Assembly (NCBI GenBank): GCA_011109175.1
Contig: RDEW01000046.1
Span: forward strand, 340,628 to 404,627
Direction of reading: 5' to 3'
DNA: 64,000 nucleotides
Source of the DNA: Dicyema japonicum
Taxonomy: Eukaryota > Dicyemida > Rhombozoa > Dicyemidae
The translations under genes and the position numbers were made by a program. Position 1 is the first letter of the stretch; the number at the start of each line of letters is the position of its first letter. Shown in pieces: positions 1 to 59,240 of this stretch. The notes beneath the pieces are model-generated. The model had not been told where the DNA came from, did not search any database, and saw only the letters and a program-made list of their open reading frames with translations.

Positions 1-1872
1 TCCTTTTTGGATATAATTTAGGATTATATCTGCGCCACCAGAGATGGTGAACCACATGACGCACGCTAACAATTAAAGCTCCCTGCAACAAAAAGGAAGA
101 GGAGGAACAGAAGAAACAAACAAAAAATCTTCATTTAATTAAATTAAATAACTAACATTTTTACAAGGCTACCATGAATTATAAAGAAGCATGAAATAAA
201 TTTCTTCGAGATGAGTTCAGTCATTAATTACAAGCAATGTCTTAAATATGACAAATCTATCGAATATTTGAAAAACTGAGAACTATTTCAGCACTCCTAC
301 AATCAAAACAAAAATACAAGTAACATACATTACTAACTAATAGAGTCAGTGATTGTTGCATCACTGAAATTGATATTACCAGATGTTGTGGGTCTCATCG
401 AAAAGCATAAAACAATTCCACTCAGCAATGATTCCATTCGTCTAAGAATCGACCAAATGAGAATAATTATTGAGTTGGTTTTTTTTTCAAACTTAATGAG
501 GTTAGTAAATTAAGACCACTTTTAGGTATTAAGGATATCATGTAGATGCTAAAAGAATAACAAAATATTTTATTATTTTCATAAAATAAAATTTGTCACT
601 TTGCTGGATTCGAAAAAGTTGCAAGATTATGATTTTGGATATTCGAAGATTATAGATCAGTTGCCAAAATTTTGCAATTCCATCTTTCAGATAATCTTTT
701 ACTTTCCTATTTCATATCTTGTTGAGAGAGAATACAGCCCACTTGTTTAATGAAAAGTAAGCGAAATAAATTGAAAGTTTGTGAGGCGATATTTGACTTT
801 AAGAAAAAAGTGAGCAAATGGGTCATATAGCGACTGCCTGGCTATTCCCTCTCAGGATGGCGAGTGAGATTCTTCATATTAATGGCTTGTTTAATATCAT
901 TTTAATTGTAGCGAGTTGATGCTCTTTTGACAGTGACCAGTTTGCCTTAACTCATGGCTGTCAAAATAACCCCAACTCGCAACAATTAACACAAACAGCT
1001 GAGGACATTTAGGCAGAGTAATCAGTACAAATTAACTCATTTGTCTATATAAGGAATTAAGCCGTTTCTCTTACGTTTTCTGGCTTCGATTACCATCGAG
1101 AAACCCCAATAATTAGCTAAGTGATCTTTAAAATCACAATTTACACACTTTTGTACTTCAGTCACATTGACTTTACATTATGCCATAGAGTGAGGGTCCG
1201 ACCACAGTAAACACTTCGCTTGATTCTTACAAAGACGAGTTATGTGTCTGAAATCTTAGCATCCGTAACATTGGAATTTGGCTTCCTGTACGACCCCGCA
1301 CTACTTTTGAGAAACCAATTTAACAAGACATTGAGCTTCTGTCAAACATTACCACTTTCACTAATGGTAATTCATTTTTAACAAAACTCTCAATCGTTAG
1401 CTTTCTCGATAGTTTCACAGTAGGAAAACTTTCAAATTCTGAATTTTCCACCCATAAAGGGACGTTTCTTAACAAGACTGCAACAAGATTTCTAATCCGA
1501 ATGAATGGCCTCCTTTACCGAAAGGATTTTCTTTATCAAGGACGACTTGAAAATCTCCTCGATTGCGGATTGTTTCAATGAGGAGGATCGTAAAATCTGC
1601 ATTGCTCACGAAGGACTTGCATACGTCATCGTTGGTCAGATAAATTGTTCATAAATCGTGGCAAGGCCACCAGTTTGGTCTCTAAGTGTTTTTGAGAGCA
1701 CTTTTAAAATTCTCATTTTCTTTAGAGCAGAAGTTACTTTTTTTGTTTTTTTGCGGTTGCATTCTTGTTGCAACCATTTTATTCGCAGGTTACTAGGCGA
1801 TCCGATTAAAAGTTTAATTTACTTATAAAAAATTAAGCCAACAATGTTATTTGTTAAATAAAATGTTGTTAG
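1..1872. other. Intergenic AT-rich sequence
   Basis: No convincing coding region is visible on either strand. Two repeats lie within it. Bases about 35-112 resemble the reverse complement of about 31640-31740. Bases 811-872 are one copy of a leader repeat found at four places in the window. The stretch from 880 to 1870 is downstream of the alpha-actinin stop codon on the opposite strand and may contain its 3' UTR. Confidence 0.5.
811..872 (+). repeat. Leader repeat, copy 1 (+)
   Basis: About 60 bases beginning GGTCATATAGCG and containing CTATTCCCTCTCAGGATGGC recur at 13742-13812 (+), 17803-17890 (-) and 40061-40146 (-). In the last two the repeat sits at the 5' edge of a non-LTR element with a WYLDD-type reverse transcriptase, so this copy is probably a solitary 5' end of that family. 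No RT coding follows here. Confidence 0.5.
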
Positions 1873-4800
1873 TTACATATCACTAGATCCACCAAATAGG
1901 GAAAACGAAAAAGAAACATAATCCAACGGGTTAGCTTCCATTGTCGGTTGTGAGTAAGGTTGCATATTCCTTATGCAGTACTCAGCAAATTCATGTTCCA
2001 GGTTATCACGGAGTAATTGTGAGGTGATATAAGGCTATATTTTACGAGGAACCGTACCTTTCCATTGGCCAAAATACGGAAACAACTGGTTATGTTTCCC
2101 ACGGTTTCATGGGACTCGTTTATCTCATTCATAAATTCAAGATACGCGGTAAAAGTGATCGATCCTGTGTTATTTTTGTCAAGTCGCTTCATCAGTTCAT
2201 AAAACGCCTCGTCCTTAAAGTAAATCCCCAATCTTACGTTTTCAACAGTCGCAGAATCATAACCCAGAGATACGAGACAGTTTCTGAATTCCTCCGGGTC
2301 CAATTTGTGGTCATTATCCTTGTCAAAGTGAGCAAATGACGTCTGGTAATTCGAAATGTTCTCCTGTGATATCCCCGTCGACTCCATTCGAGCCAATTTC
2401 TGTTGTTCTACTTCAATGTAGACCGAGGATATATAAGACCGCAGTTTTTCATAGTCAATCTTCAGTTTCTGGACGCTGTAGCCAAGATTTCGAGTGTCAA
2501 ACACCTTCGCATCCACCACCTTCTGGTATTTAGCTTCGAGGAGTGCAAGGGTGGGTTCAAATTCGGCTACTTTGACCTCGCATTTGACTAGATACTCCAA
2601 TTCTGCTTCCAAGGTCTCCGAATTGATTGACTGAATCTCCTTGATATCCTTCGCCATCTTTCTGATCCAATTATTGGCCTCTATCGACGAGTTTCTAAAG
2701 TTCTCCTTAACGACATTGATCTTAGAGTCACCACATAACAAACATGTCTTTGATTTTTGGCCTCATCCTCGAGTTCTTTCAGCCTCACTACTCTCATCTT
2801 ATTCATCTTATTCCATGCCGCCATGACGGACTAATATGTCAAAAAATGGGGTACATCAATACTCACAACAGAGTAAACAGTCTCCTTCTGTTTGGGGAGG
2901 TCGGTACCCTCACAGCATCGCCCAATTTCAGTGGCCAACAAGCGGATCTGCTCAAGTCTGGCTTCAGCCGAAGGTAGAGTTTCCGCGAATTCTTTATTTG
3001 AAACAATCATTTGATTAGCGTCGGATTCGCAGTTTATAATGTTAATGTTCTCGAAATCATCATTTACGGAATCCAACCATTTCTTGAAGGCCTACAAAAC
3101 TGTTGAAGGCAATCAACCGTGACTCTGACAGCATATTCAAGCTGTATAGTATCAACTTTCTCCAAAACAGCACGATATTTCTGCAAGCAGTTACAACGGG
3201 GGAAACCTCGATCCTATTAATAATACCAAGACAAGTGCTAGACAGATCTGCATGTTTATCAACCAATTCCTTCTCCCGCTTATTAATGTTGTCCACATCG
3301 TAATAGTTCTGCTTTCTGCTAATAATGATTTGCTATCAACCGAAAAAATGCAGCAATTTCGGAAATATCAGAAAATGAATCATTCTCGGGATCCTCAATG
3401 GAAAGGTCGTCTCTGACCGTGAACGCCATATTAAGCATCGGCTGCGGTTGCAAACCAAAATATACCTTAATATCGCCCAATTTTACTGAATTTGGGTTTA
3501 TTGCGGGGAGCTCCGACTTCTTTTCGTTCAGCCAGTTTTCGTATGAGGCACAACGTTTGTAAAACTTGTTTAATAACTGGGAGAAGAATCGCAGTCTAAA
3601 TATTTATATGATCACTACGTTTCTATAAGCTTGAATATCCACTCTTCGAAGCCTTCCTCAGCAATGTCCAGTTTGGCCCACTCCCTTTCGATATCCTATA
3701 ATTTCTGAAGAAGAAAACCGAGATAAGCTGTCCTTCCTTGGAATAAAGCAAGGCCTTCCTGAAAGTTTAAGTCGTGTTTGCAGGCAGTTATAGATATTCT
3801 CCAACTCGATCTTCTCTCCATAGTAAGATGGTTTCTCAGTGAGTCCATAGTTGTGGTAAGCATTTAGTATTTTATAAGCATTGTTCAACGAATTTTCCAC
3901 AGGGCGACTGTTCAGCCATTTTACAGTCGATTTAATCCATTCCAATAACTTCAATGAACCGGCAAATAAACCCTTGTGCTCAGACCTTCGTAGTTTTCCA
4001 TCAAATTTTCGCTTTCCTGGTTCACCTTCAAAGCCTGACATATAGTCTCCGCAGCTTTCACCGCCTACCGTAAAAATGTCTCCGACCTTCTGGTCTGAAG
4101 TAAAACGGTGGTAGAAAGTGGAAACGTAAGCCATGACTGATAATTCGTCAGCCATTCCAGGTTGGAGAAGATCTCATAACAGAATAAAACCAACCTTCAG
4201 TGTCCAGCATCTTTGGGATGTCCAGGTGTTTCTCAGCCACGGCAAAGGCGTCGTTGAGGTTATTTCTGGGATACATTCTCTAACATATAATCAAATCAAA
4301 CATCATATTTTTGTATATCTATCAAATCTGGTCTGTGACGGTGGATTAGAGCTCCAAAGGCCATTCCGTCCTTAAAACTAGGAATAAAGGAGAGAGATAA
4401 GCCTCGTGTGGAAGTTCTGGATGTCGACTCCTCGGTAGCCTGCGGTCTTCCGCTGAGTCCATAACAAAAGTCCCTCCTTGGCGGACCGTTCTAAAGTATG
4501 AGGTGGAAATACCTTCAATGTGGATATTTTGGATGGCAAATCGCAGAATTATGGTCCAGATCATACCCAGAGTCATTTTTATGTTTCCATCCACGATTTC
4601 TGCGGTGGAATAATAAACTCAACCTTCTGCGCCGATCGATGCGAGTCTGACGCCTTTGGTTTCAATAAAATTCAATGCTATATTTAAATTTGCAATTTTG
4701 TGGAATCTCATAGTCTTGGTCTCTGGTCTCGGAAGACTTTCATTCGAAATGACTTCAAGTAATTTTATCAGTAGAAGGCCGTCCATAAAATCCTTATCAA

Positions 4801-4954
4801 AAGCCTCAACTTTCATATCTACTTTCTTCAAATGAGAATTGCACCACTCAGTGAAAGCCTGGATGAATATAATCGAGATTACCCTTATTTGCTGTCTCTC
4901 CCATGAAGGATCCAGCACACTTTCTCTATCCCAAGTTTCATTATTAGAGTCCAT
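1873..4954 (-). CDS. ACTN: Alpha-actinin (18 exons, 17 micro-introns)
   Basis: Actin-crosslinking protein of the cytoskeleton. Exon joining gives 886 residues, close to the usual ~890. Order: CH1 (about 18-125), CH2 (about 135-240), spectrin-repeat rod, two EF-hands. EF loop 1 (753-764, [12 protein letters not shown]) keeps its calcium ligands; loop 2 (793-804) ends in Ala instead of Glu and probably does not bind. C-terminus is LFGGSSDM. Introns: 4859-4882, 4600-4623, 4491-4512, 4378-4402 (GC-AG), 4280-4301, 4173-4194, 4065-4086, 3949-3971, 3685-3718 (uncertain), 3596-3618, 3319-3340, 3181-3206, 3092-3117, 2831-2866, 2721-2743, 2214-2237, 2035-2057. The start is the ATG at 4952-4954, seven bases after a TTTTACAG that could be a cis or trans 3' splice site. 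Identification is by family pattern; splicing is inferred from frame and alignment. Confidence 0.95.
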
Positions 4955-5694: not shown

Positions 5695-6330
5695 AAAAGA
5701 TAACACCAAGAAAGAAGGAGTAAACCAACTAATTAAGTGATCCTGGTACGCCTCAACAGGATCGAGAGGTTTTACTATGTTCCTCCAGAGTACCCACGGC
5801 TTTCCTGTATAGACGACGATCATCTTTCACTAGAGTTTGAAGAGGGGTGGGTTTTTCCTCAAATTACGTGTATTTGAGGCTTCTAGCCTTGAATGGAAGA
5901 AACGACTTGTTTCTTGATCACACAGACCGATGAAGCCGGAGCCGTTATTTTTGATTGCGGCGTGGTCAAGCATTGGGGGAAAAGATCGGGGGTAGATTTG
6001 TTGACATGCAAGTTTGCCTACTAGGGAGTTGATCTTGTATGAATTGGATATTGAAGCTCCATAGGCCCATGAGGCACAAGCAAACTCTACCGTCGGTTTT
6101 AGAAGTTGATTGTACAAGACGACAGCGCATTCCCGTGACGGCCTGGACTTCAAAAGGTCGCTTACCTATTAATGCCGCATTGAATAATGTCATTCAGGCG
6201 AACCCTCGAGGTACAGGCTTCCCAGCTCAACTGGAGCTTGTTGGACTGGATCGTAGAGATTGCAAGAAGCCAGACGGAATGACTCTTTTCCCACATTCAC
6301 ACGGAAGATAATTGGTCTGAGATTTAACCT
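5695..6330 (-). mobile_element. CR1/Jockey-type LINE, 3' fragment
   Basis: Minus-strand translation of 5830-6153 contains VLYNQLLKPTVEFACASWAYG, typical of the thumb/connection region downstream of a non-LTR RT. The 3' terminal motif shared by this family (GGATCACTTAATTAGTT followed by a CTTGGTGTTA-type end) lies at 5695-5745. Frame breaks show the copy is dead. Confidence 0.65.
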
Positions 6331-6600: not shown

Positions 6601-7389
6601 TGTAATTTTTATTTTTTATTAAAGAAGTTCAAATTTTATTGTGGCGGCATGCGGTTCAACTGTTGTCGTGGTGGCGCCCAGTGCAAGTTTTGCATTAAAG
6701 AGAACCGTTTGAATTTCTTCACACCTCTACGTATTTTTGAAGGGTGGCTTACCAATTTCAATTTGCAAAGGCTTAATTATTTTAATTTTTTGTTAATAAA
6801 TTGTTTTCCATTAAAAATACTTAATATTTACAGTTTGGTGACTATAAGTGCAATTGTTCCTCAATCACTACTACTTGGATAGCAATCACTTGACCTACCT
6901 AGAATCTTATTAAGAAATCCTCCCTTTTAGCAAAAAAGCAGTAAAAGCGATTGTCTAAAATTATTGAGGATTTTTACTTTATTAGTTTTGCAAAAATGTC
7001 TTTTGTATATTATTATCATATATCTTTAAGAACAGAAATGGACTTTGTTTCTTTAGTTTTCATCGCTTTCCTGTACATAATTTTTGAGTTTGAGAAACGT
7101 GAGGTCTAGTTGAAATAAACTTGTGAATTAAGATGATCAAAATACTCAAGTATTTTTGTCAAAAACAATAGTTAATAACTTGATATGAAATATTTACCAT
7201 TAAAACTTGGCTAACAAATTTTTGTATAGAAACGAGGACAAGCATAACGACTTATTAACCTTAATGAAATAATAAATGATATTTACTCACCATTTGTTCA
7301 AAAAATATTTATTGGAAATGTATTAGGCTCATGATGGGTCGTTGGATTGAAAGGTAAATAGAACATTAAGATTATTTATTTTCTTCGGT
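6601..7389. other. AT-rich sequence, nothing recognised
   Basis: No coding or repeat structure could be supported on either strand. Confidence 0.4.
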
Positions 7390-7830: not shown

Positions 7831-8118
7831 CTTAAAAGGGATTTAAAGTAGTCGAAATTTTTTTCGATCATCTCATCTCTCTGGACGGCATTCTCTCAAT
7901 GTTGGAACATTTTATCGATTGAGACTGTTGACCTCAGGAGACGTGGAACAAAATCCAGGCCCAAAGAAGTTAACAATCTAGAGCGTAAACATAAACAAGA
8001 TCAGAGGAAAGATTGCCGAACTTTCCTTATTCTTGGAGAGGAACAGAGTAGATATCTGCCTTCTCCAGGAAACGAAGCTTTCAGAAAACATTTCTACTCC
8101 TCTCTTTAATGGAGATAG
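7831..8118 (+). mobile_element. CR1-type LINE 5' fragment: 2A-like site plus endonuclease start
   Basis: A single frame reads through RLRLLTSGDVEQNPGPKK and continues into VNINKIRGKIAELSLFLE and DICLLQETKLS, the start of an AP-type endonuclease (the QE pair is catalytic in that family). One TAG replaces what is probably a Trp codon at about 7978. Homology stops at about 8118. The copy is therefore a 5' segment lacking the rest of the endonuclease and all of the RT. Confidence 0.8.
7922..7963 (+). other. 2A-like ribosome-skipping sequence
   Basis: Translation RLLTSGDVEQNPGP matches the D-V/I-E-x-N-P-G-P consensus of 2A peptides exactly, with the usual Leu-rich stretch before it. In known 2A sequences the Gly-Pro peptide bond is not formed and the downstream protein starts with Pro. 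Here the break would fall directly before the endonuclease. Activity is inferred from consensus only. Confidence 0.85.
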
Positions 8119-15061: not shown

Positions 15062-17519
15062 ATTATTATTATTATTTAAAGCACTCCCGAGAAGTCATAA
15101 AATTAATCAAGCCTCCCTTGTGCCGTATTTCTAGCCATCCTCTCTATCAGCCTTTTCCAGGACCCTCTACTTCGTGCCAGTTCACTTAAGGTATCTAGGT
15201 CGTCTGCGGAAGTGAGCTTCAGTCCCACAGCCGACAGGTCTCCATTCAAAATAGTTGGGAGTGTGACTCTTGGTCTTCCACGGAAACCGGCTCCCGTATG
15301 CATTAAGTAGTTTTCCATGGCGATATTCGCGGGTACTTGAGCATTTAGACGTAAGATATGTCCAAAGAGACTCCATCTTGATCTGAAGATCTCCTCGGAT
15401 AGTATACCAGATTTGCACTTCGAGTAGAGGTCATTGTTTGAGATCTTCTTAGGCCACTTGATCTTGATTACTGATTTCAATTGTGTCCTGTGGAAAGCGT
15501 CAAGACGGTCCATCTCTTGTTTAGAGATTCCCCAAGTGCCTGAATTGTAGGTCAGGACGGGGATGACAAAAGCCTTATATATTCTGAGTTTGGTGTTTAA
15601 TCCCATCCTCTTCTTATGACCCCACATATTCGATACTTTCTTTAGTGCACACATTGCGAGGATTTTCCTCCGAGAAACATCTTCTGAGTCCCCGAGAAGC
15701 GAACCCACCTTCTTTTGCTTTCTCCAAGACTCGTCCGATCTTCGATCATTGCGTGTAAGTGTTGTGAACTCTGTTTTATCGGTGTTAACGGTTAAGAACC
15801 ATTTCGAGAATACGTGTGGAAGAACGTTAAGCATGTGTTGAAGTACTTGAATATCCTCAGAAACAAAGTCCAGGTCGTCCGCGTAGATTATCTCGTTATA
15901 ATTGTTGCCAACCAGGGGTCTGAACTCTCTTAGTGCGGCCTCAAGGTAGACAATAAAGAGGACCGGGGATAGTGAGTCCCCCTGTGGAACTCCACGTGAG
16001 GTCGAAAAAAAGTTAGAGGTAGAGTCACCAATTTTGACGGCAAGTTGAGTGTTCCGCATGAGTAAGTGTATTATTTTGACATCGTCAGGCAGTAGAAAAC
16101 TCTCCAACACTTCCATAAGTTTTCCACGGTCCACCGAGTCGAACGCACGGGACATGTCGATACCAAGTATCTCAATAGATTTTTTGTATATTTTGGCACA
16201 GGGCACAATACCACCTGTGCCCCCATACCACGTCAGCCGTGGACCTGCCCGTCCGGAATCCACTTTGGCCGTCCGAAAGAAATATGTTCACCCTCTCCTT
16301 TATTCGGTTTAAAGCAATGAGGGATAATGTTTTTCGTATGGAGGTTAGGAGTATAATAGGTCTGAAGTTGTGAGGGGGGCCTTTACTTTTTCCCGGTTTT
16401 TGTAGTGGAATTAGCCACCCTTTTCCCAGTTCCAGTTCATCTGCACCCTCGAGAGACCGGTTGAAAATGTTAGTAATCATTTCAATTAGCTCCTCCGGGC
16501 CGTATTGTAAAAGTTCTGCAGTAATGAAGTCTGGTCCGGCAGATCTTCCGGTATTTAATTTTTTAATAGCTTGTTGAGTTTCGGATATGGTAATAGGGCT
16601 AGTTAGAGTGTACTTGTAAGACTTCCGAGATTTCATTGCTTGGTCAGCCGCGTCCTGTTTGTTGAACATAAGGTCAAAATGGGATGCCAGAACGTTTGCT
16701 TTGTTAATGGTCCCGATAACGTCGTGACCAAGGTTGTCATGGACAGTTAACGAAATTGGACAGTTTTCTCTGCTAAGAAGCCGGATTGCTTTGAACATTC
16801 TTGGTCCGTTCTTGTACTTTAATATGTCTGAGATTTTCTCCTCAGCTTCATTTTTGGCAAGGAATCTTTGTATTTGTTTGATCTTCGTTAAGACTCTCCC
16901 TCTCTGGGTGCGCAGTACTTTGATATCTTCCGGAGCGTTTGTGTTTTCCATCCGGAGTCTGAGCTCTTTCTGTGTTACAGAGAGTTGTCCGATATCCGGA
17001 TTACATTGTTTGTGACGAGATTTGGTGATGTGACCAAGCACACTAAAGGCTGTGTTTTGGATAGCAACCACTATTTCATCCCATAAGCTGTTTGTCGGCT
17101 GATTTTGGTTAATACTGTTGATGCTATCTCTCAGAACTGCACTATAACGACATTTGGTGGATTCTTCGTAGCGTAACCTCTCAGTGTCGAAACGTACTGA
17201 GGTAAGGCCTTTGTGTTTCCCGTGTATTCCATGGATTCTTTTAAGTACTAGCCGGGCGACCACAAGTTTATGATCGCTACTTGTTTCAAGTCCACCGTAA
17301 GATCTCGAGTCCTGTAGGAGGGCCTTCTGATGTTGCTTGCAGATAATATAGTCGATCTGATTGTATATATTGACTGTGTTTCCAGATTTGCCTTTTCTGG
17401 TACCAACCCACGTGGTCCTGTGTCTTGCCGGGTGCTTGAAACAAGTGTTGCATATGAGTAGGTTGAATGCCGTGCAAAATTGTATTAATGCCTCTCCGGG
17501 GATGTTACGGCGGTTTCTA
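15062..17519 (-). mobile_element. RTE-like LINE, 5'-truncated, nearly intact RT
   Basis: Encodes the end of an AP endonuclease (NQIDYIICKQ and SSDHKLVVARLVLK) and a full RT: QKPGKSKGPPHNFRPIIL, QSGFRTGRSTAD, MSRAFDSVDR, GVPQGDSLSPVLF, IIYADDLDFVS (catalytic YADD), then a C-terminal region with MDRLDAFHRTQLKSV and SRWSLFGHILRLN. The only break is one frameshift near 16200-16260. The 3' end is an ATT repeat at 15061-15076. Identical direct repeats of 29 bases at 15033-15061 and 17520-17548 are the target duplication, so the insertion is recent. The 5' end is truncated inside the endonuclease; coding reading past 17519 is target DNA. Confidence 0.9.
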
Positions 17520-27244: not shown

Positions 27245-30200
27245 TGCCCTAAAATAAGACATTTTATTTATTTAACCCAAGACCACGGTAAAACCAAACT
27301 AATTATCACGTGATCCCAATGCATTCTAACAGAGAACCCGGTGTTCCTCCTCCGTGCCCGCGCATGAACGTACAGGACGCCTGAATTTTCAGGACCACCT
27401 TTCCGTAATCTAAAATCTAGTCTCATAAGAGTCTCCAGAGGCGTAGGTCCGGTTAGGTGATCTTCACAAATCAAACGCTCCGCTACTCTGTAAGCCCTCT
27501 TTTGCATTTCCTCAATTTCCCCCATATTTGTCCAAAATATGGACGGTCCCCACGAGGCGCATGCATATGAGAAAAATGGTTGAATGTACTGTTTGTACAC
27601 GTTCATCAAGATTGGGTGAGTACCACTCTTCCATACTCTCGATAAACTTTTCAATACGTTCAGTTTCTTCTCGCATTTCAATAGAATGTTTTCTACGTAT
27701 GGTGTCAAACAGAGATGCTTATCAATTGTCACACACAAGATCCTTTGATAAATGTTGGAAGGGATGCCAACCTTGTTTAACTTTAAGGTGACTGTCTTTC
27801 TTCCCAATCTTTTGTCAGAGGTAAAAAAAGTGACGTAGACAATTTCTCTGCATTCACCAAGAGCCGGCATTAAGCCTGTCAAGGTTAATTTGTATTTTTA
27901 CTGTGGCCTTCTGGATGTCCTGATCTCGCGAAGCCAACACAATATCATCCGCATAGGAAAGTAGAACATCATTATCAGATTCAATACTCGGGAGATCGGC
28001 CAGAAAGAGGTTTAACAAGGCAGGGGATAAAGGAGATCCTTGAGGGACCTCGTTGAAGAGAAGACGTGAGATTGATTTCAGACCTCCGAAGCAAACACGT
28101 CCCCTTTGTCCACTTAGGGAGTTAATAATCCAAAGCTTTAGCTTCCCTGGGGGTTGTAGGAAAAAAAGTCAAGTGAAAAAAAGGTTAAGCGGAAAAAAAG
28201 TCAAGTTGTTTTTTTTTAGTTTATATCGCATTTATGTGATACTACTAGCATCTTTTAATTTTTTTTAAATATTTAAAATGTTATAAACATATGATTTTTA
28301 TTTAACGTGAATCAACGGATTATTTAATGTGAATCAAAAGAATATTTAATATGTGAAGATTTTTTCACACATTTAAAAATTATATAGTTTTTTTGTCTCC
28401 GAGTGCTTTGTATACATAAAACCCTTAAAACAAATTTTCTTTCCTCCTTTGTTAGTTGATATTATCTCCATTTTGTCTCTTATTTTTGAGGCAAGCTTAA
28501 TATTTAAAATACGCTTAATTATAACCTTAAAATCCGTATATTGATTAAATCAAAAAAGATTAAACCAAAGAGAAAAAAGTCAAGTCAATTTTATTATTAC
28601 TTTGAAATTCTTAAATTGATTTAGTCAAAGCGATTATACCAAGTCCGCTAACGAAATCACGGACTTGACTTTTTTTCCGTTTTGCGCTAAATTTCGAAAA
28701 TTTATAAGTGAAAAATTTTCAAAAATAGAAAAAAAGCCAAGTATTGAAAAATTTTTAAAAATTAAAAGATGCTAGTAGTATCACAAAAATGCGATATAAA
28801 CTAAAAAAAGACGACTTGACTTTTTTCCACACTCCTCCCTGGGATCCCCGATTGAAATATTTTTCTCGAAAGAATCTTCCTCGAGACTGAATCAAACGCT
28901 TTATGTATGTCAATCGAGCAAAGCACTGTTTTAAATTGTCTCGGCTTGGTTGTGAATCCGGCTCGACTGAAGTCGCTCAATGTTTGTAGAATCTATCATT
29001 TTTGAATCCATGTTGAAAGTCCTCTCTGATAAAAAATATTTTAGTAGTGATACCGGGCTAAAAGACGCTGGGTCATCTCTCGGTCTTCCTGGTTTTAATT
29101 TTGGCCTTATTATTGCTTGTTTCCATAATAATGGTATCACAATCTGGTTAATCGAATAGTTGAAAACCGACATTAGAAAAGTGACTCCCCGTCTCCAAGA
29201 TTTTTTAATAAAATAACAGGAATGTTGTCCGGTTCGTGAGAGCATGTCGTTTTTGCAGAATGTATTGTATCCCTCACCTCTCTCTCCGAAAAGAAGAGTG
29301 GTTCTGATAGTCTCTTTAGTTTCCTGCGTGATGGTAATGTATCAGACTTCATGTGCTCCTTGTGTGAAATTTTAGTATATAATTTTATAAAGTTGTTCAC
29401 ATCTCTTTGAACATAATCCTCATGTTGAAGTTTCATCGCCTTTTGCCACGTTTCGAATAGCTTTTCACACATCTCCCGTAGTGAGATTTCTATTTACTAT
29501 TGTAAGCACACGATTCCACTTCACCTCTGGGCCTTGAGCTCTTTGCCTTTATTTCATTAATCAATGTTCTGATCCGAGTTTCATTCAAAAGTTATCCGGT
29601 TAGATTTTGAAGCTGATTTCCGTCTTTAATCTTCCCTCGACCACCGACGAATTTAAGTAATGTTTGGGTGTAGCCCTTGATCTTGCTTCCAAGATTATTT
29701 GGGTAAAGTAGCTGATGGCAATCTCCAGAGAACTGAAGCTATCCAAGTAACAATTCTTATTTTTTCTTTTGAAATTTCGCGATACAATTTCCAGTTAGCA
29801 CCTTTGTAATTGTAGCTGCTAGGAATTCTCCTCACGTTGGCCTCTCTTTTGATCTTCACCACAGTTGGATTATGGTCGTTCTTGTTTGTGAACGACTGAC
29901 CAGCCAATTTTTGATGAAAGCGACGCCCTGTGAGGTAGGTTTATGTCTTCTCAGTGGTGTCCTTGTATTTCTCGATGGATCATTCAATATCGTTAAGGAG
30001 TCCGTTTGGACAACAATAGTTTTCCTCTCATGTAAGCTAGTTGAGTTGACAGCCATAAGGAATGCTTCGGATTCGAATCTCCGCAGATGATGATCTCATC
30101 GAAGGAAGACAGTCTTTATGGTTTGGCATAACATAGCTCTTCGGGCAGTAACCAGGAGGCGGAATGTAGATATTCACAAGACATAGCCGACGACCTTGAC

Positions 30201-31050
30201 ACTATGAGAGCCAGGGAAGCATGGAGAAAGATGACATCTAACATTGTTTCTTTTGCTACACATGCGGGGCTATAAGTAGTATGACTCTCGTGAAGTGCTT
30301 AAATAAATAATAAATAGTCTTCCTTCCATTGTCCCGAGCGAGATTCCAATTATTTCTGTAACATCATCATCTCCAACAAGTTTCCTTACTTCCGAGATGT
30401 CTCTGCATTTCAAGTTTTTTTTGAATAGAGTGAGCAGACCTCCATCTCTTTTTTCTCTACGGTCCTTCCTGATTGCTTTGATCCTGGAAATGTTGGGGTA
30501 GGGTCATTAAAAAAGAGTTTGGTCTCTTGAATCATTGCAACGGTAATCTTTTGACAAAGCCAGGAGTGAGCGGAGTTCCCTGATTTTTCCTTTAATTCCA
30601 TTAATGCTTTTCTTTTCGATGGGCTGAAGATTTCCTCCGGGAAGGTTCGATCTTCCGCAAATGTATCGCCCGGGGACGAAAATGTCCCCAGGAGGATGGG
30701 GTCTATCGGTCCATGGTAATGTTGTATTTGAGTGACCTATATTTTTTTGACTGATATGCCAGTCATCCATCGGTTATAGTCCTCGTCCCGTAAAGTATGT
30801 GTCTTGTAATCACATCTTTCAAGGTTTCGGTCGATCTACAATGTTCAATAATTTTAAAAAAACCTATCTTGAACCTCTGCGAGAAAACAGCGCCCTGTTC
30901 CGCGCTCAATTCCTCCAAAAACCCCATGACCTTCCCGCCATTGACCGCGATGGTATTTGCGGTGGAAGAATTTAGACTCGTCGACTTCCACGACTTTTGG
31001 TTATTATTTCTTCTTGTGGAATTATAATCTTTCTACTAGCTCTCACCATG
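27245..31050 (-). mobile_element. CR1/Jockey-type LINE, longest copy, interrupted by a MITE
   Basis: From 5' (about 31050): an ORF1-like part with GFLEELSAEQGAVFSQRFK; then about 30660-30705 HPPGDIFVPGR, perhaps a decayed 2A site; endonuclease start INGIKGKIRELRSLLA and MIQETKLFF; RT start YTKISHKEH and HEPDNIPVILLKN; KAFDSVSRKIL; EVPQGSPLSPALL; SYADDIVLASRDQ; FTSDKRLGRKTV; and the thumb region YKQYIQPFFSYACASWGPS. The 3' motif (ATCACGTGATAATTAGTTTG and ACCGTGGTCTTGGGTT) ends at about 27245. The MITE 28152-28835 lies inside the RT. Stops and shifts show it is inactive. Confidence 0.85.
28152..28835. mobile_element. MITE (684 bp) inserted in a LINE RT
   Basis: Inverted repeats at 28191-28267 and 28755-28828 share GGAAAAAAGTCAAG, AGTTTATATCGCATTT and GTGATACTACTAGCATC. 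The direct repeat TCCCTGGG lies at 28144-28151 and 28836-28843, interpreted as an 8-bp target duplication. No transposase is encoded. The left end carries an extra imperfect copy of the terminal unit. Excising the element rejoins the RT segments around KAFDSV and the following region. The 8-bp duplication would fit hAT or P-type elements but the ends do not match hAT. Confidence 0.8.
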
Positions 31051-31639: not shown

Positions 31640-31740
31640 AATTGTTGAAGTTTCTGTTTGTTCATTTGTTCCTCCTCTCTTTTCCTATTAGAGTGGCGTC
31701 ATGTGATCCATCTGTTTAGGTGGCGCCTAGTGCCAGGCCG
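31640..31740 (-). repeat. Repeat shared with the start of the window
   Basis: The reverse complement resembles bases 35-112: a CACATGACGC core followed by GAGGAGGAAC and AACAAAC. Function unknown. Confidence 0.35.
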
Positions 31741-32119
31741 GCACGAAAAAGGATCATTTGCTCTCCCTTACTCCACTGGAGGGGTTTCCACTACTGCAAT
31801 TATGGACGTCTTTTACCCTTTATGTTGATTCCGGATGAACTCTGTGGAAGTGGAAACTGGATACACTCAATGAGTTGTTTACTTTAACTTCTTTCTAGGT
31901 GTATCCGGGGTTAATAAATTAATTAATGACAGGATTGTATTTTCTCAAGTAGATGTTATGTTAATAAAATTATATATTTTCTCAATTATTAAAACTATTA
32001 GAACTCAGAAGCAAAAACAAGGAATGAATTTCAAAAGCAATTTCAAAAAACTCATACATACAAGAACACCCAAAGGAAATTTTGTCAAAAATGATCTAAG
32101 ATAGTAAGATCATCTACAC

Positions 32120-37674: not shown

Positions 37675-38080
37675 TTTAACAAGATTTCATAATTTTCCGT
37701 CTCGATGAGCTCCAGTGATCAGATCGTCTGCATATTCAAACGCAATTGTATTTTTGGCTTCCGGATTAGGCAGGCGGACAGGAACAGGTTGAAGAGGTCC
37801 GGAGACAACAAAGAGCTTTAGGGAACACCATTTGGAAAAAGTCTTGAGACCGACCTGGATCCATTCATACAGACCCGTCCTCTCCTTCCGCTAAGAAAGT
37901 TGGAAAGCCACAGTTTTATGTTGGAATTGAGTGGTAGACCAAATATTTTTTGCATAAGGATCTTTCTGCAGACTCAGTCGAATGTCTTCTGAAGGTCAAG
38001 AGAGCATATGACTGATTTGTGGCGTGGTTTAGTGTCAAATCCTTCTATGATGAACTGAGTTAACAAGGTAAGGTTTGTCG
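37675..38080 (-). mobile_element. CR1/Jockey-type LINE, RT core fragment
   Basis: Minus-strand frame gives CSLDLQKTFD, CRKILMQKIFGLPLNSNIK, LWLSNFLSGRRGRVCMNGS and LFPNGVP, the palm region of the RT before the YADD box, as in 45210-45752. The fragment is truncated on both sides. Confidence 0.75.
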
Positions 38081-40677: not shown

Positions 40678-43024
40678 ATGATGGTTTTTAAAATCTGTAT
40701 AGGTTAGATCTTAATATAATTTTAGGATTACTTTTTTGTTTCTTAACGTCTGGTATCTGAAAATTATAATTTTAAGGTGTCGACTACGATGAAGTTTTCA
40801 ACTACAACGGTCATTCGTATTACTTCTCTTCCTCCAAATATAGTGGCTATTATCATAAATACAACTGCGGCAAAGATGGACACTATCCAGTAGAAATAGT
40901 GAATTCCACGGAAAATAGTGTCATCGCAAGTCAAATAGAAACTTATCCTTAGGTGTTTTAAGAAAAGACAGCGAAGTTGGAGTATACAAAAATTATGGCA
41001 ATAAGAAATATTATCTTACTCGCAATGATAAACTAGCTGTACGGAAAAACCTAATTTTAGAATTATACCAACATCGACCCAAAATCATATGTTAGCTATT
41101 CATCAATGACCTGTGTGATGCAATCATCCAACGGAATTTGGATTTTGTCCTACCGTTGGATTCATTTTTATATCATATGTGAGAACGGTAGTAATTATAA
41201 AATCAAAATTAGACAAAATATCATCCACTGGAATTAACATAACGCAAGATAAAATAATCAATAGTTGACATTGAAAATAAATCCTAGTCAAATACGACGA
41301 TTTGCTCAGTTACAGAGGACATTCTTATTACATTTACGGCATAAACCGAGACTATGAAGTAGTTCTCCGAATCTGCAAAAATGATCATAATGGGTATATC
41401 TTTATTCCCAACGATGGACCTGAAAACTGTGCAATTAATAGTATACCTTTGATAACACGTTATAGCCAAAAATCACGGGTTTATTTACGTTGGGATTACT
41501 CAAATAAAAAATAAATTTATAACTGAGAAAGGCTATGAAGCGGTTAGAGCTGAAAATTAAAATTAGAAATATCTCCCATGGGCACCCCGAACCCAACCAA
41601 GGAAACATGTGTTGAAAGAAGTCATGAGACTGGAGAATTTACAAGTAAATCCTGTTACGATAATAATCACATAATTTGTGAAACTGGTTGTGCTTATCTT
41701 AACATGGTAGATGTCGTAATTTCGGGTGCAACTCCGGTGGACTGTAATTACTCCAGGAAACACTGTATGCTTCTAATTGTCATTTACAGTTTATTTTGCA
41801 CAAATTTTGCAATATAATGGATATTCTATCAGAATATTCGATTTCAAAACTTCCTATGAGGATGCTAAGCTGTTGTGCTCTCGACGAGAAGATATCCTTT
41901 ATACTCCACTCGATCAAACAGAAAATTGTGCTGTGATGGGTTTTTACTTTAATTATGCCAAGAAAACACTGAATTTACCATGGGACTGAATTATGGCGAG
42001 ATATACGTCAAAAATGTCTTAGTCCGTGGCGACGGATTTAAAGATGTATGTAAATGCAAATATATTAGAACTACACAAATTGGGATTCTGGGTACCCTGA
42101 AAAGAACGATCAAAAGACATGCGTATATGCATACTATCACTCCGGTAAATGGAGAAACGATGTCTGTCAAAATATATCATTTTCTTGCAGAGAAAGGCAA
42201 AAAAATCTACCATCGTCTATCACGTGCAATAAAAACTTTTATGGTTGGAATTTAGAGCAAATAATATTTAGAAATACCAAAAGATGCTTATCCAGTTGTA
42301 GTTTATTCGAAAACCTATTCTATGTTTGGCCGTCTATTAAGTTACCACGACTCCGTGAGACTGTGCTCATATTACGGACAATCACTCATACAAACAACGG
42401 ATTTGAACATAATTAAAAAACTAACCAATAGTACTCTTATTTATGCTCAACTACAGACCTAATTGAAACAAATATGCACGTGGGTTACAGAATATTATGG
42501 GATAACACAACACTCACCTGGCTTGATGAGCAACCATCTGTTTACATATATTTTCTTAGTTTTAGGGAACTATAAAATGGGCTCCTGGTGAACCCAAAAG
42601 TAACGACTTTTTAATATCTTGTGTGAGCATTGCCCCAAACAATACATTCATCACAAATTCTTGTTACTCTAAATATGTCGCAGTTTGCGTTGGAAATGGT
42701 TTTTTAAATTGGTCACAAAAGAATCTCCTACAGGACTACGACTACTTCGAGACATCATCAACAAGCACAACAACAACTTCCACGACCACCACAACTACTA
42801 CAAGTACCACAACTCCAACAACAACAGAAAAAACTAGTTTACGATATTTTTTAGTTTAAGGTTCCTCAACATTAAAAGCATCGGCATGTTTATTGTAATT
42901 AAATTATTTCATAGCTAAAAAATCGAACAGCGTTGCAGTCGGAGTCGGAGTGTTCTTTGGTATTCTTGGGATCATAGCTGTCGGATTCGGAATTTTCATT
43001 TACAAAAAGTATGAGATTTTTTAA
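40678..43024 (+). CDS. Membrane protein with tandem C-type-lectin-like domains
   Basis: Signal peptide MMVFKICIGLLFCFLTSG, then repeated CTLD-like units. Conserved parts: NYTNIDPKSY...YIICE; PENCAIN...DNNHIICE; TNWDSGYPEKNDQKTC...WRNDVCQNISFSCRE; LLSYHDSVRLC...TWLDEQPS/GTIKWAPGEPKSND...VAVCV. These follow the WxGxP(N/K)ND, W.D.C and final C.E pattern of CTLDs. A Thr-rich stalk (about 42745-42835), then VAVGVGVFFGILGIIAVGFG (TM) and a short Lys-containing tail. Micro-introns placed: 40703-40725, 40753-40776, 40930-40952, 41039-41060, 41188-41212, 41264-41287, 41687-41710, 41765-41789, 42046-42068, 42540-42565, 42837-42860, 42888-42914. The intron before the xYTNW/TIKW block recurs in three units. 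Frame does not close near 41500-41560, 41985 and 42460, so either unusual introns or inactivating breaks exist. Likely surface lectin; ligand unknown. Confidence 0.75.
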
Positions 43025-44649: not shown

Positions 44650-45752
44650 TATTAACCCAAGAACACCAATAGTTTATTTAATTACTAAATTAATTAAGTG
44701 ATCTCGAAGGCCTCAATCAGAATTCTCATTTTCTCCTCGTGCGCCTTCTGGGATCCAACACAACTTCTCTGTGGGCGAGGTGGTTTCGGGAATAGGAATT
44801 AGAGAGGGGTGATGTACACCCTTTTCATAAGACATGTGGTGACTGTGTATTGTTGTGAGTTGTACTGCTTGCACAGGGTAGCAAATCCTTTTCCATTTTG
44901 TCAGATAAGGTCTTCAAGTGATGAGGGTAATAGTTTTTCTAGTTTCCCGAGATTACTAATAGTAGTGGCTGTTAAGGCCTGAATGTCTCGGATTCTTTGT
45001 TTGTTCGTCCAGACAGATTGATTCCCCGTGACGTACAGGCATAGCTGACAGGCTCAATGAATTGTTTGTGCAACAATTTCAAAGCTGGGAAAGAGGTTTT
45101 AATGCCACCGAAAATAGTTTTGATTATCCCTAGCTTTCTTGAGCAGCTTCCAGAGACAGTGTCGACGTGAGATGAAAAGGACATGTGTGTGTCGAGGTGA
45201 TCCCAAGATTTACAGTTTCTTCGTGAAAGGTATTTTTGTCTGGTTGATAAATATATCCACTGTCATTTGCCCAAGTCGTTTGTCTGAGGTAAATAAGGAA
45301 GAAGATTTTTCAGTAGATATATAAAGCCGGTTATAATTTAGCCAAATTTGAATCTTGTGAAGGTATTCTTGTAGTCTTTCTGATGCCTTTGGAATATCTT
45401 GGTCACGGGATGTGATTAATAAGTCATCAGCATATGATAGGATGAAATCGTCTTTATTATCGGGTTGCGGTAAATCGGACATGTATAAGTTAAATAAGGC
45501 GTGTGATAAAGGGGAACCTTGTGGGACACCATTGGGTAGTAATCTTGTAATTGATTTGGTCCCATCCATGTATACCCGGACCCTTCTTCCATTTATGAAG
45601 TTAGCAAGCCAAAGTTTTATATTGGGGTTGACGGGGAGAACAAACAATTTCCGGGTTAGGATTTTCCTTGAGACAGAGTCGAAGGCCTTTTGTAAATCGA
45701 TCGAACAGACGACTGTTTTGAGGTGACAAGGATTTGTGTTAAAGCTTTCCAT
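44650..45752 (-). mobile_element. CR1/Jockey-type LINE, RT to 3' end
   Basis: An uninterrupted 180-residue frame (45210-45752) has VVCSIDLQKAFDSVSRKIL, LWLANFINGRRVRVYMDG, GVPQGSPLSHALFNLYMSD, LSYADDLLITSRDQD and SLFTSDKRLGQMTVDI: a complete RT palm with YADD. A second frame (44972-45184) gives LLHKQFIEPVSYACTSRG. The 3' motif (GATCACTTAATTAATTTAG and TTGGTGTTCTTGGGTTAATA) lies at 44650-44705. 5'-truncated upstream of the RT. Confidence 0.85.
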
Positions 45753-45771
45753 GATAATAGTTAATTTAAAA

Positions 45772-46110
45772 ATTAATAAATTAAATCAAAAATTATAAGG
45801 TTAAAATAATTTTAACTTATAATTTTAAATTTTAACTTTTTAACTAATAATTTTGTTTAATATACATTTATTTATAATAAAATATAGTCAAAAATCATTT
45901 TAATGATTATTTATTAACTATTATTAAATTTTAACTTTTTTAACTTGGTTCGCCCTATTGATTACACTGCTATATAACTTGGAACACTCTCAAAAAGTTC
46001 CTTAATTAGGGTCATACAGGATTCTAACCACATCATTGTACATAGCACTGTCTTTGAGTATATGAGACTATAAAATCTTGGAAATAAAGCTAAGAAGGTT
46101 GCAAAGGGAG
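45772..46110. other. Very AT-rich spacer
   Basis: Low-complexity A/T sequence, then a short unique stretch leading into the lectin fragment. Nothing else recognised. Confidence 0.4.
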
Positions 46111-46111
46111 G

Positions 46112-46196
46112 ATGGGATTGCCCAATGACTGTGTCTTCCACTTAATAAATAACCGTTGTTATCTATTAAGTTACCACGACTCCGTGAGACTGTGCT
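46112..46196 (+). pseudogene. C-type-lectin gene fragment truncated by a LINE
   Basis: Reads NDCVFHLINNRCYLLSYHD-SVRLC, the start of a CTLD. Bases 46162-46196 are identical over 35 nt to 42333-42367 in the lectin gene, with no similarity on either side. At 46197 the reading continues directly into LINE RT sequence (WIANFLNGRRGRV). Confidence 0.55.
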
Positions 46197-47095
46197 GGAT
46201 CGCAAATTTCCTAAATGGAAGAAGAGGAAGAGTAACTGCTGGAAAAACTAGATCAGTGACCAAGTTCCTTTCCAAATGGGGTCCCTCAAGGATCTCCACT
46301 TTCACCACACCTATTCAACTTATTCTTAATTGATATGCCCTCCCTTACCAGAGACGATACTCTGGTTCTGACATATGCGAATGATATAATCGTCGCAGTT
46401 AAAAACCAGTGCGTTAATACTGCTGTTTACCGACTACAAGCTCCATTGAAAGATTTGAACTGTTGGCTCGTTAAGAACATTCTACATACAAGTCCCGAAA
46501 AGTCTTATACAACAATTTTCACAACAAACAGAAGATTGACAAATTCCGCTCCGTGTGTAACCATAAATGGAAATTCAATCCCCACGACCAACTCGGTCAA
46601 GATACTGGGCGTGACTTACGACCCATTCTTGACCTTCAGCTAACACATCGACAACGTCATTTGTTCGACACAACGAAAGCTAAAGTTTGTTAAAACACTC
46701 CTTGGACAATATAAGGGTGTTTCAACTCAAATTTGGACTCGCTCTACGTGCAGTATATTCAACCGTCTCTAACTTACGGGTGTGCTGCATGGGGAACCAA
46801 CCTATCAAACAGGAATATAGAAAAAATCAATACCTTCCAAAGAATGGCCAGTAAGGTTTTGCAAAGGTGCTCTTAGACACCTCTAAACCCTACACCTTTT
46901 GAGGAATTAGTGAGGAAAACCGGAGCCTTACTACCCTCCAATAAAGTTAGAAACCCCCGCCCAATCCGGAAATGCGTTGGAACCCAGGGAGAACACCGAG
47001 TAAGAATGAGATGGCTACTCGAGGCGGCCGAAATCATTTGACGGCTATGCAGTTATTTAATTTGTCGGTGATTTTCGGTTTTTAATAATAATAAT
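46197..47095 (+). mobile_element. CR1/Jockey-type LINE, RT to 3' end
   Basis: Encodes WIANFLNGRRGRV at the 5' edge, then LVLTYANDIIVAVKNQC (YADD decayed to YAND), TTIFTTNRRLTNSAP and ILGVTYDPFLTFS, followed by further degraded thumb sequence. The 3' end reads GTCGGTGATTTTCGGTTTTT and an AATAATAAT tail at 47064-47095. This 3' end differs from the ACCGTGGTC type and matches the fragment at 51815, so it represents a second subfamily. Confidence 0.8.
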
Positions 47096-54084: not shown

Positions 54085-54965
54085 CGAAAAAACCACCGTC
54101 ATTTCCAAAATAACAGAATTCAGATGATCCCAGCCTCTCCCTCAACAGTCTCCGCATCTTTTCTCGGTGTTCCGACTGCGTTCCTACGCATTTCCGATAT
54201 GGACGGATTTTCTAGGTTTCTTGACAGAATTTCCACTCGGGAATATTTCCTTAGTAGGTTTGCTCCTTCACTCGAATGCTGCCTATCTTGTCCAAATTCG
54301 TTGCAGAAAGTTAGATCCCCAGATATTACATGCGTATCCTATTGTAGCCTCGATGAACTGTTTGTATGACCTCCAGACCACTCAGATCTTTTATGTCATT
54401 TAGGTTTCCCAAGAACGCCTTCAGGAAGTTGATTTTCCTCGTACAAGTCAATAACATATTCTCGACATGTTTTGTAAAAGTTAATGTGTCAATGGTAACT
54501 CCCAAGATTTTCTGGTATTTGTTTTTCGGGATAATCTTCCCATCCAGTGTGACGTCAATTGATACTTTCCCTAGTTTTCTGTTTGTCGTGAATAGGATCA
54601 ACCCCGACTTCTCCGGCTAGCAGTCAACTGATTTTCGAAAATTGCAATTGTTGGATAAAAAATTGAATAAATTAAAGAAATATAACTAAAATTAATTATC
54701 GAATTTTTATTAAATCATATTTAATTGCAATTGGTTGCCCTAGTTATAGTAGATAAGGTTTTTCGAACTGTAGCCTCAGATTCCTGAGTGGGGCCTGAAC
54801 TTTACCAGATTTTGTACTGCCGTTGAAATGTTTACTGGGTGAGTCTTGAATATTTCGGTGAACATAAGGATTTTTACTAACTGAATCGGCGCCTTTTTTA
54901 GTAGTTTTCCACAAATATTGCCAAAGCCAGGTTTGTTATTATTCAAACGCCAGAGACCTTCCATA
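54085..54965 (-). mobile_element. CR1/Jockey-type LINE, degraded 3' half
   Basis: The part 54326-54601 encodes ILFTTNRKLGKVSIDV, KYQKILGVTID and CTRKINFLKAFLGN, the segment after the YADD box. The part 54776-54964 encodes NNNKPGFGNICGKLLKKAPI, from the RT start; the palm between them is deleted. The 3' signature (GGGATCATCTGAATTC and a GACGGTGGT end) is at 54090-54135. Confidence 0.65.
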
Positions 54966-58389: not shown

Positions 58390-59240
58390 GAATTTCAAAA
58401 ATTTCAAGTCCGTCGGATGACATCTTTCCATAAAGTTTCTTTGTTTTATGAGTGTCAGGGAATTGAGGGTATAAAATTCTTGTATGATGAAAGAGAAATA
58501 AATATGTTGTCAGCCTTCTGAATGCCCACGTTGATGATTCTTGCGGCTTCATCTTTCGAATTTATATGGGATGATAGTCCTTTGACCAATTCCATGTCAC
58601 GAAATCAGAGAAGCCAGACCAATCAAACTTATAGTTCTTGAAACTTTTCGCTTCAGTCTGCAATGTCCGGCGTCTCAGAAATCCTCTATTAACATAAGAA
58701 TGATGGATTATGGTTGCTGGAAAAATCATAATTCACATCCCATGTAGCAAGTCACGCTAAAGAGGGTAAACAAAAGGTTAAATCGAGAGAAGTATTCCTT
58801 AATTGGGTTCTTGTGTGTAATTTAGGGTCATTCAGGATAATCATATCAATAAGACCATGAACTCGGCTGTCAGAGGAATGTGAAGCAAGTTCGATTTCGG
58901 AGAGGAGAGCTCCAGAATATTCTTTCTAATTCCATTTGTATTAGATGTAGAATTATTAAGTCTCCACGTGGACCAGGGTTTGTTTCAATGTCGCCACATA
59001 GGAGGATCAATAGTCCAGAACAATGATGACAAAGTCGGAGGCACAGGTCACAGGAACACCCAAATAATGGGATCTTTCGTTCCTTTCCGGAATGGGTGAC
59101 ACCTTTTCTGGTGAGCCACTAGACAACACGTTAAGCACATTGCCACGTTCTTATAGTCAATTCACTACTCGAAATCCTCACGCGGGGTGGAGTCTATATG
59201 TTCCAACCCCATTAAGGAGCACGATGTGAGTCATTTTTTG
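58390..59240 (-). mobile_element. CR1-type LINE 5' fragment: 2A-like site plus partial endonuclease
   Basis: From 5': a Cys-rich frame CLRLCHHCSGLLILLCGDIE-TNPGP, then after a one-base shift NTNGIRKNILELSSP (endonuclease start). A gap follows, then SLDLTFCLPSLA and TWDVNYDFSSNHNPSF, the end of an AP endonuclease. The catalytic middle is deleted and no RT follows. Confidence 0.75.
58969..59013 (-). other. 2A-like ribosome-skipping sequence
   Basis: Translation LLILLCGDIETNPGP fits the D-I-E-x-N-P-G-P consensus with a Leu-rich lead-in. It occupies the same place relative to the endonuclease as 7922-7963 but has a different sequence (DIET against DVEQ), so the motif is conserved while its surroundings have diverged. 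Confidence 0.85.

Follow-up and report, generated by a model that had tools for sequence, protein, structure and literature searches.

The window, which is the whole stretch of 64,000 nucleotides of the Dicyema japonicum genome analysed here, has a GC content of 37.3%. Dicyemids are microscopic animals that parasitise octopuses. The genome itself is described as 67.5 Mb in size, with a GC content of 36.7%, 49% repeats and a mean intron length of 38 bp (PMC6736024). The features recognised in the window are collected in Table 1. They include an alpha-actinin gene, a fragment of a LINE family (family A) with a 2A-like motif, the front end of another LINE family (ETN2) with a second intact core, and copies of a conserved LINE 5′ module. 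The window is full of LINE debris, in the form of many RT and endonuclease relics that resemble the family A protein.

Table 1. Features of the window and the basis of their recognition
Feature	Position	Strand	Basis
5′ module (HDV-like fold), relative of family A, short kind without 2A	3..77	-	blastn, 88% to A_L002
Alpha-actinin gene	1971..4954	-	
RT/endonuclease relics	5965-6120, 15469-16642, 27424-30641, 37776-38072, 44883-46957, 49380-51352, 54148-54613, 58476-58880, 59975-62273		tblastn, family A protein
LINE family B 5′ module, without 2A	6641..6712	+	blastn, 89% to B_L049
LINE family A fragment: leader end, 2A, first ~50 AP endonuclease residues; truncated at both ends	7881..8113	+	blastn, 92.3% identity over 233 bp to the open copy C123 of the same genome; also L002
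2A-like motif of the family A fragment	7922..7963	+	translation
Core DVEQNPGP of this motif	7940..7963	+	
TAG in the endonuclease frame of the family A fragment	7979..7981	+	
LINE sequence with GGNLQP before the endonuclease start	30507..30773	-	by eye
5′ module of a further family, kept out of the fold definition	31676..31767	+	blastn to B, Q and V representatives
Open frames, C-type-lectin-like	41554..42859	+	by eye
ETN2 front end: 5′ fold relic, leader, intact core	58888..59140	-	blastn, 75.4%, 285 columns, ETN2_L069
Second intact core of the window, GDIETNPGP/DIETNPGP (ETN2)	D codon from 58992 downward	-	translation

The family A fragment contains in its plus-strand frame the 2A-like motif RLLTSGDVEQNPGP, whose core fits the viral StopGo/2A core (D/G/C/N)(V/I)ExNPGP (PMC12846837). 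Right behind the motif is the start of an AP endonuclease, KKLTI*SVNINKIRGKIAELSLFLERNRVDICLLQETKL, where the asterisk corresponds to the TAG that interrupts the frame. The original prediction at this locus was an intact 2A-like motif directly before a LINE endonuclease. The motif is real, is in frame, and shares its core with relatives, and the endonuclease sequence does follow it immediately; it begins sooner than the eleven residues downstream that had been proposed. The copy was also rightly regarded as dead, but the single stop codon is not the sole reason, as the fragment has neither the 5′ end nor a start codon, retains only a small part of the endonuclease and contains no RT. The similarity to the open copy stops at either end of the fragment.

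Two other loci of the window can be mentioned here. In one LINE family, represented by L109, L111 and a minus-strand sequence of the window, a GENPQP-like sequence is seen by eye before the endonuclease start, in another frame; the window sequence reads GGNLQP where NPGP would stand. The open frames that look like C-type lectins gave no Pfam match in the first of them.

The introns of the alpha-actinin gene are apparently very short. In one place a GT...AG stretch, 24 or 30 nt long, keeps the frame of this gene and would be read through, and it is located in a 12-residue segment that is missing from chicken actinin. The sole match in the protein search, whose length limits full-length actinins fall outside, was P0001, a 147-residue fragment registered as 'Octopus sinensis' alpha-actinin-4-like with 65% identity. 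By eye, P0001 resembles chicken actinin only distantly, to roughly the degree that the window protein does. It is probably a dicyemid contaminant sequence in the octopus assembly, which would explain both this distance and the identity to the window gene.

The 2A core and the element in the genome

The assembly searched comprises 64,672,829 bases in 191 contigs. The peptide D(V/I/M)ExNPGP, written as degenerate DNA, has 344 exact coding sites genome-wide, and neither the codon-reversed nor the letter-reversed pattern has any (0 for both). These counts and the match of the fragment to an open LINE copy indicate that the motif in the window is not a chance sequence. Other family members, open copies among them, carry the motif as well. 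The window locus is what remains of a 2A motif that stands close to the protein N-terminus in a LINE family with one ORF.

Family coverage is drawn from about 100 of the 344 core sites, and thus mainly from the first contigs, together with some matches of an earlier genome search. A set of 85 copies with the exact core was compiled, leaving out those whose upstream sequence was shorter than 180 nt, contained N or was identical to that of another copy. Endonuclease-like sequence is found behind the core in 78 of these 85 copies (E up to 0.01), against 0 of 85 when the letters are reversed. L019, L029, L050, L055, L059, L072 and L077 are the seven copies without such a match. The core, which is the selection criterion of this set, is represented by 37 different 24-mers and 14 peptides.

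Because the 85 copies were picked by the core itself, a second test was built on the endonuclease alone. Its query was 113 residues long and started after the 2A; scoring covered the top 150 of its 1443 candidates, and in the earlier genome search the top 150 of 961. This endonuclease-only search gave 39 matches to the endonuclease start on contigs C1–C87, the part of the assembly in which every core is listed, and the exact core is present just upstream of 19 of them. Among the 20 endonuclease starts without it, 19 were fetched, and 16 of these show, by eye, mutated relics of the core, such as DVEQNLGP, DVKQNPGP, EVEQNPGP and DVETNTGP, or frameshifted forms. In the other three (L102, L109 and L111), no core is seen before the endonuclease start. 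With recognisable relics at 16 of the 19 coreless starts fetched, the 2A would most simply be ancestral to this set of elements and decaying with the copies.

Open copies contain a single ORF in the order leader, 2A, AP endonuclease and reverse transcriptase. The ORF of the C123 copy has 928 residues from the first Met, 50 of which precede the D of the core. Pfam matches in the 928-aa ORF (L080, C123) are PF03372 (3.5e-11), PF14529 (1.7e-13) and PF00078 (1.8e-34); at E up to 0.01, these endonuclease and RT families are the only ones, and an RNase H domain was not found in this ORF. The C68 copy has an open frame of 1030 residues in the same order, which is partly flank. Counted from the first Met of the element, the leader is about 35 residues long in family K and up to 57 residues long in family L.

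The copies are alike over roughly 105–205 nt before the D codon, and then their flanks diverge. At 4 of 15 loci (L042, L053, L054 and L080), a target-site duplication of 11–16 nt flanks the element, one copy lying immediately before the leader and the other behind a simple 3′ tail. Eight of the 15 loci have no duplication, and in L049, L050 and L055 the matching words do not qualify as one. With endonuclease and RT in one ORF, target-site duplications and a 3′ tail, the element is an APE-type non-LTR retrotransposon.

The 5′ module and its HDV-like fold

The 5′ end of the element, which encodes the start of the leader, is conserved in nucleotides across families, whereas the reading frame differs. 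The same module is read as ATG TGG TTC ACC in family A and in the other frame, as ATG CCG CGT GGT TCA CC or ATG TCA TGT GGC TCG CC, in families M and K. One word of the module, GTCATGYGGYTCACC, was counted 270 times genome-wide, against none for its control.

Read as RNA, this 5′ end would contain P1, P2, P3, P1′, a P4 hairpin, an A-rich J4/2 and P2′, which is the order of HDV-like ribozymes. Seventeen representatives were hand-picked, corresponding by eye to about 15 sequence families. The P4 hairpin can be seen by eye in most of them and is not evident in family K. The helix blocks were placed on the representatives by hand, leaning towards structure, and so placed, 91.6% of the 238 cells of P1, P2 and P3 are standard pairs, compared with 83.6% after shuffling. 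Changes on both sides of a pair number 23 versus 5.6, and the covariation score is 0.384 versus 0.202; none of 500 shuffles reaches any of the three values. If the partners are slid by 1–3 columns, pairing falls to 32.6–50.0%. Examples are TGGTTC/GAACCA, TGGCTC/GAGCCA and TGACTC/GAGTCG for P2, and GCGTC/GGCGC, ATGAC/GTCAT, TCGTC/GACGA and TTTTC/GAAAA for P1.

When the blocks were inherited by alignment only, the fold was assigned in 68 of the 85 copies and left unassigned in 17. The minimum free energy (MFE) fold of family A contains P2, P3 and P4, and those of X and N contain only part of the nested set; z-scores are weak across the A, X and N folds tested (-1.7, -0.7 and -1.9). L3 of X and N is TTCTCGT and TTCACGT, which look HDV-like. 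A loose HDV descriptor was discarded as evidence. It accepted 34 of 76 real upstream stretches, 90 of 760 shuffles, 11 of 54 far-upstream stretches and 1 of 57 downstream stretches, and is too permissive in AT-rich DNA, so the covariation count was used in its place.

Fourteen loci were chosen that have no listed core near their 5′ module. Six of them (L113, L114, L116, L117, L123 and L124) carry mutated relics of the core. L121 ends before the core, L118, L119 and L125 are short, L120 and L126 are partial, and L115 shows no core. In the remaining locus, L122 (C5:79910-80410, - strand), one frame leads from the 5′ module through the leader to the endonuclease start KDKISVMQLNVNRI without NPGP, and the locus seems to be a family member without 2A.

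L118, L119 and L125 consist of a family A 5′ module joined to the 3′ end of the element, and have no 2A, endonuclease or RT. Their 3′ match to the C123 copy extends over 70–82 columns with 72–79% identity. These three complete short elements and the partial L120 and L126 have in common an extension of ~115–145 nt upstream of the fold. The extension contains a pyrimidine tract and CAG and looks like a splice acceptor. The module has thus been kept where it no longer leads into the endonuclease and RT, pointing to a role at the level of RNA or DNA.

The modules of the window can be described in the same terms. The one at the window edge, which cuts it, has the P4 hairpin GATATAAT/ATTATATC and the upstream stretch in common with the short elements without 2A. 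The family B module includes the leader start and P2 as CGGTTC/GAACCG. In the module of the further family, the pairs GGCGTC/GGCGCC (P1), TGATCC/GGATCA (P2) and GTGCC/GGCAC (P4) are seen by eye.

The HDV-like fold at the 5′ end is well supported by the compensatory changes, whereas its self-cleavage is a step that we infer. The difference in grade comes from several observations, of which the background of the loose descriptor is one. None of 13 loci matched an HDV-like Rfam model at E up to 5, and the window has no such match at gathering score. By eye, the usual catalytic C can be seen in J4/2 of 8 representatives, while the other 9 lack it. P1 is short, with scoring limited to 5 bp, and there is a U-U mismatch in P1 of ETN; a P1 defect of this type is linked to lost activity in other ribozymes (PMC3774820). 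Finally, 9–11 nt separate the duplication from P1 in L042 (family K), L054 (ETN) and L080 (family A). These nucleotides, and the upstream extension of the short elements, indicate that in some copies the 5′ end lies upstream of the fold.

It is possible, and to be taken seriously though it is not the preferred reading, that the 5′ RNA is not a ribozyme. It could be a structure for translation initiation or for RT or packaging, or the DNA could serve as a promoter, with an HDV-like topology only and the 2A nevertheless present. The representatives lacking C in J4/2, the failure of Rfam to match, the extension in the short relatives, the offset in three of the four duplication-bearing copies, and the location of the AUG inside the fold would all suit such a role. 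Against it, the helices are in the right HDV-like order with an A-rich J4/2, and one junction is exact: in copy X (L053), nothing separates the target-site duplication TACGGTGAGTAA from the 7-bp P1 GATCGTC, and this junction is the predicted cleavage site. Besides, by column identity the similarity in families K, L and M fades no more than a few nucleotides from P1, at variable junctions. In R2, variable 5′ junctions go with cleavage at the 5′ end of the element, according to PMC3774820, and this parallel favours a ribozyme.

The leader, predicted ribosome skipping and known systems

The reading preferred here, which we regard as probable, is that of a single-ORF LINE with an HDV-like 5′ fold containing the start codon and with a 2A that releases the leader of 35–57 residues, while the endonuclease-RT protein continues. 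An AUG and an open frame are present in the sequence within the fold. The element RNA would begin with the fold, which would cut itself from the upstream transcript and set the 5′ end. Translation would start at the AUG inside the fold, either in P1 or between P1 and P2, and for that reason the leader is partly dictated by the RNA fold, which the families read in two different frames. At D(V/I)ExNPG/P, where the slash marks the Gly-Pro bond, the core predicts that the ribosome would skip; the leader would be shed and the endonuclease-RT protein would start with Pro.

One may speculate that the purpose of the 2A is to remove the leader that the ribozyme imposes. On a bolder reading, which has a little less than an even chance, this would be an entire animal LINE lineage in which a ribozyme carries its own start codon, each protein starts with a leader encoded by the ribozyme, and a 2A right behind strips the leader, so that of two devices in the style of RNA viruses one solves the problem created by the other. 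If this is true, trypanosome L1Tc would be a second instance of ribozyme-2A coupling, either inherited or independently reached. The idea of leader shedding is testable with the two-frame reading of one fold and with L122, which seemingly has the 5′ module without 2A.

The residues upstream of the core bear on whether skipping occurs. L-rich motifs ending with (A/S/C)G are active when D is at p12 (PMC12846837). Under a strict Leu-rich rule, 3 of 4 hydrophobic residues and then (A/S/C)G, 10 of the 17 representatives and 40 of the 85 copies fit. Family A of the window (RLLTSG) and family L (SLLTSG) end with SG, yet they fall outside the strict rule. The context of family K, GLRRCG, is clearly different and is also outside.

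The seven representatives outside the rule, family A included, could suggest that NPGP is a leftover inherited at the N-terminus that does not promote skipping efficiently and that the product is mostly a fusion, and the frame of L122, which runs from the 5′ module into the endonuclease start without NPGP, would agree with this. Such a remnant is unlikely, since the octapeptide is exactly the canonical active core, the ten fitting representatives belong to a class described as active in PMC12846837, and the codons vary synonymously among copies.

It is very improbable that the released leader is a signal peptide with dual targeting through incomplete skipping, as described for the 2A of sea-urchin NLR proteins (PMC4981915). 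The leaders are N-terminal and short, and many of them are hydrophobic near the end, as in the sea-urchin case, but it is hard to see why an endonuclease-RT protein would enter the secretory route, and the part of the leader encoded by the ribozyme is not conserved as protein.

Many LINEs possess an ORF1, and the original prediction held that the 2A separates an ORF1-like protein from the endonuclease-RT protein. This part is not supported. No ORF1 is seen upstream of the 2A in the copies read, and the divergence of the flanks right above the leader of 35–57 codons led to the rejection of an upstream ORF1; what the 2A would release is the short leader. That an ORF1 lies further upstream and was missed is highly improbable, even though some 285–300 residues precede the 2A in P0012, P0014 and P0016, three relatives from metagenomes, because the copies are similar over so short a stretch before the core and the four duplications sit just upstream of the leader.

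With the single-ORF reading retained, the element can be compared with its relatives. Among the proteins found, the closest are P0002 (32% identical) and P0003 (29%). P0002 opens with a 2A, MAALIVRSGDVEQNPGP, and in P0004 and P0005, too, the core precedes the endonuclease. An NPGP-type core is seen in 13 of the 95 proteins of the combined set, this element included, which is not a frequency because the set contains the actinin P0001, not a LINE protein, and because the profile of the second search contained 2A rows. An RT can be recognised in 44 of these 95 proteins, and in the tree built from them the element clusters with P0002 (97/57) and P0003 (99/92). It joins no named clade in this tree, and the names of the homologues did not settle the clade.

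2A motifs and HDV-like ribozymes are each already known in LINEs, and L1Tc has both. L1Tc is described as containing 2A, an HDV-like 5′ end and AP endonuclease-RT, in addition to RNase H and chaperone (PMC4748587). The dicyemid element is like L1Tc/ingi (L1Tc2A, Pr77, L1TcRz) in its HDV-like 5′ RNA, 2A and AP endonuclease-RT, the active 2A being that of L1Tc and the one here predicted. It differs in the animal host and, as far as L1Tc is compared by description, in the RNase H not found in the 928-aa ORF; because of the latter, the element is not filed in the L1Tc/ingi clade. Trypanosome elements have short derivatives in which the 5′ module survives an internal deletion (PMC4035085). Similarly, in the short relatives L118, L119 and L125 the 5′ module and the 3′ end remain and the part from 2A to RT is lost.

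2A-bearing APE-type LINEs of multicellular organisms are reportedly the subject of Odon et al. 2013, and, judged by that title, the element resembles them in 2A-like core, AP endonuclease and RT. R2 has a restriction-like endonuclease and is not known to carry a 2A. It is likewise an animal LINE with an HDV-like fold at the 5′ end, and the variable 5′ junctions described in PMC3774820 are those of R2; unlike the element here, R2 is specific to rDNA.

In the open-licence literature, the surveys of Odon 2013 and Rao 2025 aside, no report on 2A or ribozymes in dicyemid nuclear genomes was found. The combination of 2A and a putative HDV-like fold across about 15 families in one animal genome provides a natural series on their pairing, and the 2A is a recurrent part of mobile elements in what is probably one of the smallest animals. 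These families add many natural 2A contexts, unusual ones such as that of family K among them. The core is the same as that of viral StopGo/2A, and the L-rich (A/S/C)G context of the 10 representatives is that of motifs 2/6 in PMC12846837; the difference is that here it is located in a LINE, near the N-terminus, with skipping predicted.
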